From Archaeoglobaceae archaeon (GTDB lineage Archaea; Halobacteriota; Archaeoglobi; Archaeoglobales; Archaeoglobaceae): a stretch of 64,000 nt of DNA. Both the position numbers and the translations under genes were made by a program. Shown piece by piece: positions 411 through 47,147 of this stretch. Every line of letters begins with the position of its first letter. Position 1 is the stretch's first letter. The notes beneath the pieces are model-generated. The model searched no databases. It saw nothing but the letters and a program-made list of their open reading frames with translations, and was not told where the DNA came from. Location of the stretch: contig JALSOQ010000026.1 of NCBI GenBank assembly GCA_026986375.1, positions 1 through 64,000 of the forward strand. The letters are read 5' to 3'.

Positions 411-463
411 CCTCAGGACTCTCCCTCTCTTCACGAATCAGATCGCCCATCATTCATCATCGG
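411..463 (-). ncRNA. Candidate C/D box sRNA overlapping the end of the DUF2298 gene
   Basis: Read on the minus strand: C box ATGATGA (460-454), a 12-base guide (453-442), D' CTGA (441-438), a 3-base spacer, C' GTGAAGA (434-428), an 11-base guide (427-417) and D box CTGA (416-413). Box order and about 12-base guide lengths are those of archaeal 2'-O-methylation guide RNAs (partners L7Ae, Nop5, fibrillarin). The C box contains the stop codon of the DUF2298 gene on the same strand, so the sRNA may be processed from the 3' end of that mRNA. The terminal stem is weak. Confidence 0.65.
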
Positions 464-47001: not shown

Positions 47002-47060
47002 CGATCAGTCGACATCCCTGTCATCATCCTCCGTCAGACCCGATGGGTTTCATCACCGTC
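47002..47060 (-). ncRNA. Candidate C/D box sRNA A
   Basis: Minus strand: C box GTGATGA (47056-47050), guide of 12 bases (47049-47038), D' CTGA (47037-47034), a six-base spacer, C' ATGATGA (47027-47021), guide of 12 bases (47020-47009), D CTGA (47008-47005). Both guides are the standard 12 bases. A TATA-like CTTTTATTCT (minus strand, 47079-47088) would start transcription at about 47060, four bases before the C box. The flanks ACG and CGT can pair. Confidence 0.75.
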
Positions 47061-47089: not shown

Positions 47090-47147
47090 TGTGTCAGTCC
47101 CGCGCACGTCATCATTGAATCAGTCCGGGTCGACATCATCATCCGAA
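47090..47147 (-). ncRNA. Candidate C/D box sRNA B
   Basis: Minus strand: C box ATGATGA (47142-47136), guide of 12 bases (47135-47124), D' CTGA (47123-47120), a four-base spacer, C' ATGATGA (47115-47109), guide of 11 bases (47108-47098), D CTGA (47097-47094). All four boxes match the consensus. The promoter is less clear: an AAATTGAATA stretch lies about 26 bases upstream on the minus strand. Confidence 0.75.

Follow-up and report, generated by a model that had tools for sequence, protein, structure and literature searches.

A family-wide archaeal C/D box guide RNA with a predicted promoter inside the coding sequence of the DUF2298 gene whose stop codon lies in its C box

C/D box sRNA genes that overlap the 3′ ends of protein-coding genes have been described before. 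In a review (PMC7994747) that covers the work of Tripp et al. 2017, 25% of C/D sRNA genes are reported to have such a 3′ overlap, the C box contains the stop codon in almost half of these 3′-overlapping genes, just 20% of the C/D sRNA genes studied carry a TATA-like motif, and most C/D sRNA genes, including gene-overlapping ones, are said to belong to longer transcripts. Given that the overlap of an ORF end with a stop codon in the C box is described in that review, the arrangement itself is already known (PMC7994747). With regard to the targets, Dennis et al. (PMC4644070) describe helices 90–93 of domain V as a methylation hotspot and state that both targets of one sRNA often lie less than 100 nt apart.

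Here we analyse an arrangement of this kind in a stretch of 64,000 nucleotides from an Archaeoglobaceae archaeon (GCA_026986375.1, contig JALSOQ010000026.1), to which we refer in full as the window. In an earlier sequence-only reading of this DNA, a complete minus-strand box set with guides of 12 and 11 bases had been noticed at 411–463, together with a C box that contains the stop codon of a gene for a DUF2298 membrane protein, and the sRNA had been proposed to be cut from the 3′ end of the mRNA of this gene. Direct reading of the sequence confirms the box set and both guide lengths (Table 1), and the ORF agrees with the claim on the stop codon: the TGA that ends the DUF2298 gene (459–457) and the in-frame TGA that follows it (456–454) are both part of the C box (460–454). 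The interval given there ends at 463; the sRNA as read here spans 411–464, and the C box itself starts at 460.

Table 1. Features at the start of the window, in window coordinates.
Feature	Position	Strand	Basis or remark
CRISPR-type repeats, three intact and one degenerate	70-303	plus	adjoin the sRNA
C/D box sRNA (ends GCC...GG)	411-464	minus	sequence; Rfam RF01152, 49.6 bits; family homologues
sRNA 5′ end, GCC, then G	464-462, then 461	minus	sequence read
C box ATGATGA	460-454	minus	sequence read; two tandem TGA codons inside
D′ guide, 12 nt	453-442	minus	conserved core TGATGGGCGA; best site LSU C2651, next SSU C1382
D′ box CTGA	441-438	minus	sequence read
Spacer TTC between D′ and C′ boxes	437-435	minus	sequence read
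C′ box GTGAAGA	434-428	minus	most relatives: GTGATGA or similar
D guide, 11 nt	427-417	minus	best site LSU C2605 (own numbering)
D box CTGA	416-413	minus	followed by GG 412-411
Predicted promoter (BRE + box A, AGGTAACGTTTTTAA)	486-500	minus	-36 to -22 of the sRNA
DUF2298 membrane protein gene, 652 aa	457-2415	minus	ORF; Pfam PF10060, E = 4e-76

The element has the layout of archaeal C/D sRNAs (that is, C, D′, C′ and D boxes in this order with guides of about 12 nt) and in a search of the window it matches the Rfam family sR1 (RF01152) above the gathering threshold (49.6 bits versus 45; E = 2.2e-9), although the same sRNA scored only 35.8, under the cut-off, in a separate search of the whole genome. 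A box pattern matched the 1.46-Mb genome 30 times, versus 0 times with the pattern reversed. By DNA search, homologues were found in 47 of the 55 genomes of the family and in 12 of its 13 genera; three of the eight genomes without a match are at least 90% complete. Both guides are conserved among these homologues while the gene contexts vary, as is expected of a conserved RNA: the core of the D′ guide and the CTGA of the D′ box are each kept in 46/47, with the same sole exception (G019). In this exception (L063), the D′ guide is changed, the D′ box reads CCGA and the D guide is altered, and this homologue may be decaying. A second match in G035 (L062) is a different sRNA, the guides of which match C18:29968-30015 of the genome of the window, and was excluded from every homologue count and matrix. 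Judged by sequence, the element at 411–464 is a real gene for an ordinary archaeal C/D box 2′-O-methylation guide sRNA that is conserved throughout the family.

The DUF2298 gene is itself widespread (48/55 genomes of the family), but it lies immediately upstream of the sRNA in only eight of the 47 genomes (that is, all five of the genus of the window and all three of genus g4); in the remaining 39, the sRNA is not behind DUF2298. These two genera are sisters with a support of 1.000 in an LSU tree of 20 genomes, in which the genus of the window is represented by a single genome. Seen from the gene, such an sRNA is absent within 400 nt of the stop codon at 23 of the 30 DUF2298 loci checked out of 60 (the gene ends of five further named loci, L011–L015, repeat those of genomes that had already been counted); in one of these 23, L097, the reading frame is interrupted by a stop codon, which hides the true end of the gene. 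Relatives that have the gene and no boxes are what the sequence-only reading had itself listed as speaking against its proposal. Among the eight genomes in which gene and sRNA are paired, the stop codon precedes the GCC of the sRNA by 1–11 bases in seven and falls in the C box only in that of the window. On these counts, gene and sRNA are associated within a single clade only, and they share the stop codon in a single genome.

The protein also differs at its end. Past a conserved IYEV-like motif, the DUF2298 protein of the window has 12 further residues and those of its four congeners have nine, and the tails of the other DUF2298 proteins examined are mostly shorter (one, L109, likewise has nine). 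We suggest that in the genome of the window an earlier stop codon just before the sRNA was lost, and that the TGA of the C box now terminates translation; the tail may be protein sequence read off the promoter of the sRNA. As the stop codon is located within the C box, the mRNA must extend at least into the first bases of the sRNA.

On its other side, the sRNA borders on CRISPR-type repeats (70–303), and its previously noted position between a CRISPR array and the gene is correct. The array as a whole (70–347) has degenerate repeats at the end that faces the sRNA, and its other end is at the contig start; the window begins at contig base 1, and the array thus runs to the end of the contig. In the other four congeners and the three genomes of the sister genus, inspection by eye of the 210 nt that follow the sRNA showed no such repeat, and given these seven relatives a link between sRNA and array was rejected: the CRISPR neighbour looks incidental.

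The guides were matched to the rRNA of the same genome, a check that had been proposed along with the earlier claims. The best fits are LSU C2605 for the D guide and LSU C2651 for the D′ guide, 46 nt apart; a pair of LSU sites no more than 60 nt apart is rare with shuffled guides (joint p = 0.005), whereas each guide by itself fits no better than its shuffles (p = 0.125 and 0.161). In Escherichia coli numbering, C2605 and C2651 are near 2512 and 2558. These best-fitting predicted targets lie close to the peptidyl transferase centre of the 23S rRNA. The D′ guide fits 16S C1382 almost equally (8.4 versus 8.8 for LSU C2651); its second base from the D′ box is an A in 47/47 homologues, and this base is paired at the LSU site but mismatched at the SSU site; 16S C1382 is the second choice of predicted D′ target. 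The LSU target sites hardly vary across the loci compared: both are present in 21 of 22, one LSU (G050) has a one-base difference in the D′ site, and the exception (G054) is bacterial-like. This last LSU (L145) reads as bacterial-like at the target region and is probably contamination of the assembly. A change is visible in the spacing of the D guide, in which the motif GAGAG is separated from the D box by two bases in all eight paired genomes (g1 and g4; for example, L016, L017 and L018) and by one base in 37 of the 39 others; the pattern missed the remaining two, of which G050 also has one base and G019 has a changed guide. Under the fifth-position rule, the extra base would shift the predicted site from U2606 to C2605 on the g1/g4 branch.

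Comparison of the gene contexts brings out a putative promoter. At the 39 loci without DUF2298, the sequence upstream of the sRNA is A-rich at -34 to -31 and T/A-rich at -29 to -22, as in archaeal promoters with a BRE and a TATA box. With a matrix made from these 39 loci, the site in the window scores 7.48 (chance of approximately 0.007 over five offsets), and another site in this genome, located approximately 20 nt farther upstream, scores slightly higher (7.7). With an independent matrix made from tRNA promoters of the genome itself (30 of 44 tRNA matches used), the highest-scoring site among the 60 nt that precede the sRNA is 486–500, and its score of 13.1 lies within the range of the tRNA promoters themselves and is reached at 8e-5 of window positions (12.2 when the matrix was rerun without L065 and L073). 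At 32 of the other 39 loci, the best site under the tRNA matrix begins between -39 and -35; in genus g4 the site is weaker (2.1 in G015 and G017, and -1.3 at the same place in G016). An sRNA processed from mRNA should have no promoter of its own; at the level of sequence, the score of 13.1 at 486–500 suggests that this one does.

This predicted promoter falls in the coding sequence of DUF2298, over the codons for EVTFLT. The codons GTA ACG TTT TTA are the same in all five congeners, and every other stretch of unchanged codons in the gene is shorter; of 348 invariant residues, only 19.5% are encoded by one and the same codon throughout these genomes. An embedded promoter explains both the constant distance to the sRNA and the frozen codons. 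A literature search listed no report of a guide-RNA promoter located in coding sequence, which speaks only weakly for novelty.

Other candidate sRNAs of this genome likewise overlap the end of a gene. At seven of the 30 places that fit the box pattern, a sense ORF (100 aa or longer) ends inside the sRNA or at its edge (stop codon at +2 to +34), and at three of the 30 this stop codon lies in the C box. Five of the seven overlapping genes were tested against Pfam and are supported by it (methionyl-tRNA synthetase, pyruvate kinase, a radical SAM protein, a TPD-motif protein and DUF2298). The promoter score of the window sRNA is the second-highest of the 30 matches, and the scores at the synthetase (-9.8), the kinase (-10.4) and the radical SAM gene (-3.8) are negligible; these three overlaps are better candidates for sRNAs derived from mRNA ends. 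At the first of them (C18:22645-22692, L175), the C box holds the stop codon of the synthetase gene and no box A is visible. Elsewhere in the window, two tandem C/D-box-like sRNAs are found on the minus strand at 47005–47055 and 47094–47141 (L181 and L182), and Rfam reports neither at its gathering threshold.

Taking these observations together, we consider it probable that this conserved C/D guide sRNA, the C box of which supplies the stop codon of DUF2298, has two LSU targets and its own embedded promoter. RNA polymerase would start at approximately 462–466 from a BRE/TATA promoter in the last DUF2298 codons, L7Ae, Nop5 and fibrillarin would assemble on the boxes, and the guides would direct 2′-O-methylation of two nearby 23S rRNA positions. 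Some sRNA may be trimmed from DUF2298 mRNA that reads through, which need not be the main source. The original proposal, in which cleavage or trimming of the 3′ end of the DUF2298 mRNA releases the sRNA and one transcript gives both protein and guide, draws on the shared strand, the stop codon within the C box and the stop codons at -1 to -11 in seven relatives; moreover, maturation is reported to withstand changes in the flanking sequence and most genes of this kind to lie in longer transcripts (PMC7994747), and other sRNAs of the genome, such as C18:22645-22692, suit the proposal better. Against it stand a conserved BRE/TATA element whose distance from the sRNA is constant across unrelated gene contexts, its tRNA-like score, the synonymous constraint on the embedded promoter and the location of the sRNA away from DUF2298 in 39/47 genomes, and we therefore do not favour this origin and regard it as unlikely.

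A combination of both routes is conceivable, in which the main product comes from the sRNA’s own promoter, a share comes from read-through, and termination of translation in the C box competes with L7Ae. The mRNA must indeed enter the C box to hold its stop codon, and a predicted promoter is present; yet the stop codon is in the C box in just one of eight paired genomes, which implies that there is no conserved coupling, and we give this version little credence. The same slender prospects apply to the more far-reaching idea that the promoter of the RNA gene is in effect translated as the tail of DUF2298 (TFLT... in this genus) and that, in the genome of the window, termination inside the k-turn could compete with sRNP assembly on read-through transcripts, such that synthesis of a membrane protein would be coupled to the supply of a guide RNA. 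That the box motifs arose by chance and yield no RNA is practically ruled out by the Rfam match, the conservation in 47/55 genomes and 12/13 genera, and the absence of matches to the reversed pattern.

If transcription from an embedded promoter is the correct explanation, the locus cleanly illustrates that an sRNA can overlap the end of a gene without having to be processed from mRNA. A promoter hidden in coding sequence, seen as synonymous constraint, is revealed here by comparison of gene contexts, and other archaeal guide RNAs that overlap genes could be sorted in the same manner into those driven by a promoter and those derived from mRNA.

Compared with known systems, the sRNA shares its box layout and length with Rfam sR1 (RF01152) and differs from it in the guides: those of the sR1 consensus fit LSU 12 and LSU 444/638 and not 2605/2651 (a rough comparison, made with consensus letters only). 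As these consensus guides fit other places in the rRNA, the match looks driven by the boxes rather than by orthology of the guides, and sR1 is doubtful as a true orthologue label for the window sRNA. With the overlapping sRNAs of Tripp et al., as presented in the review (PMC7994747), it has in common a stop codon supplied by the C box, a compact sRNA and two guides; unlike most of the sRNAs described there, it has a well-placed predicted promoter, and this promoter lies in coding sequence.
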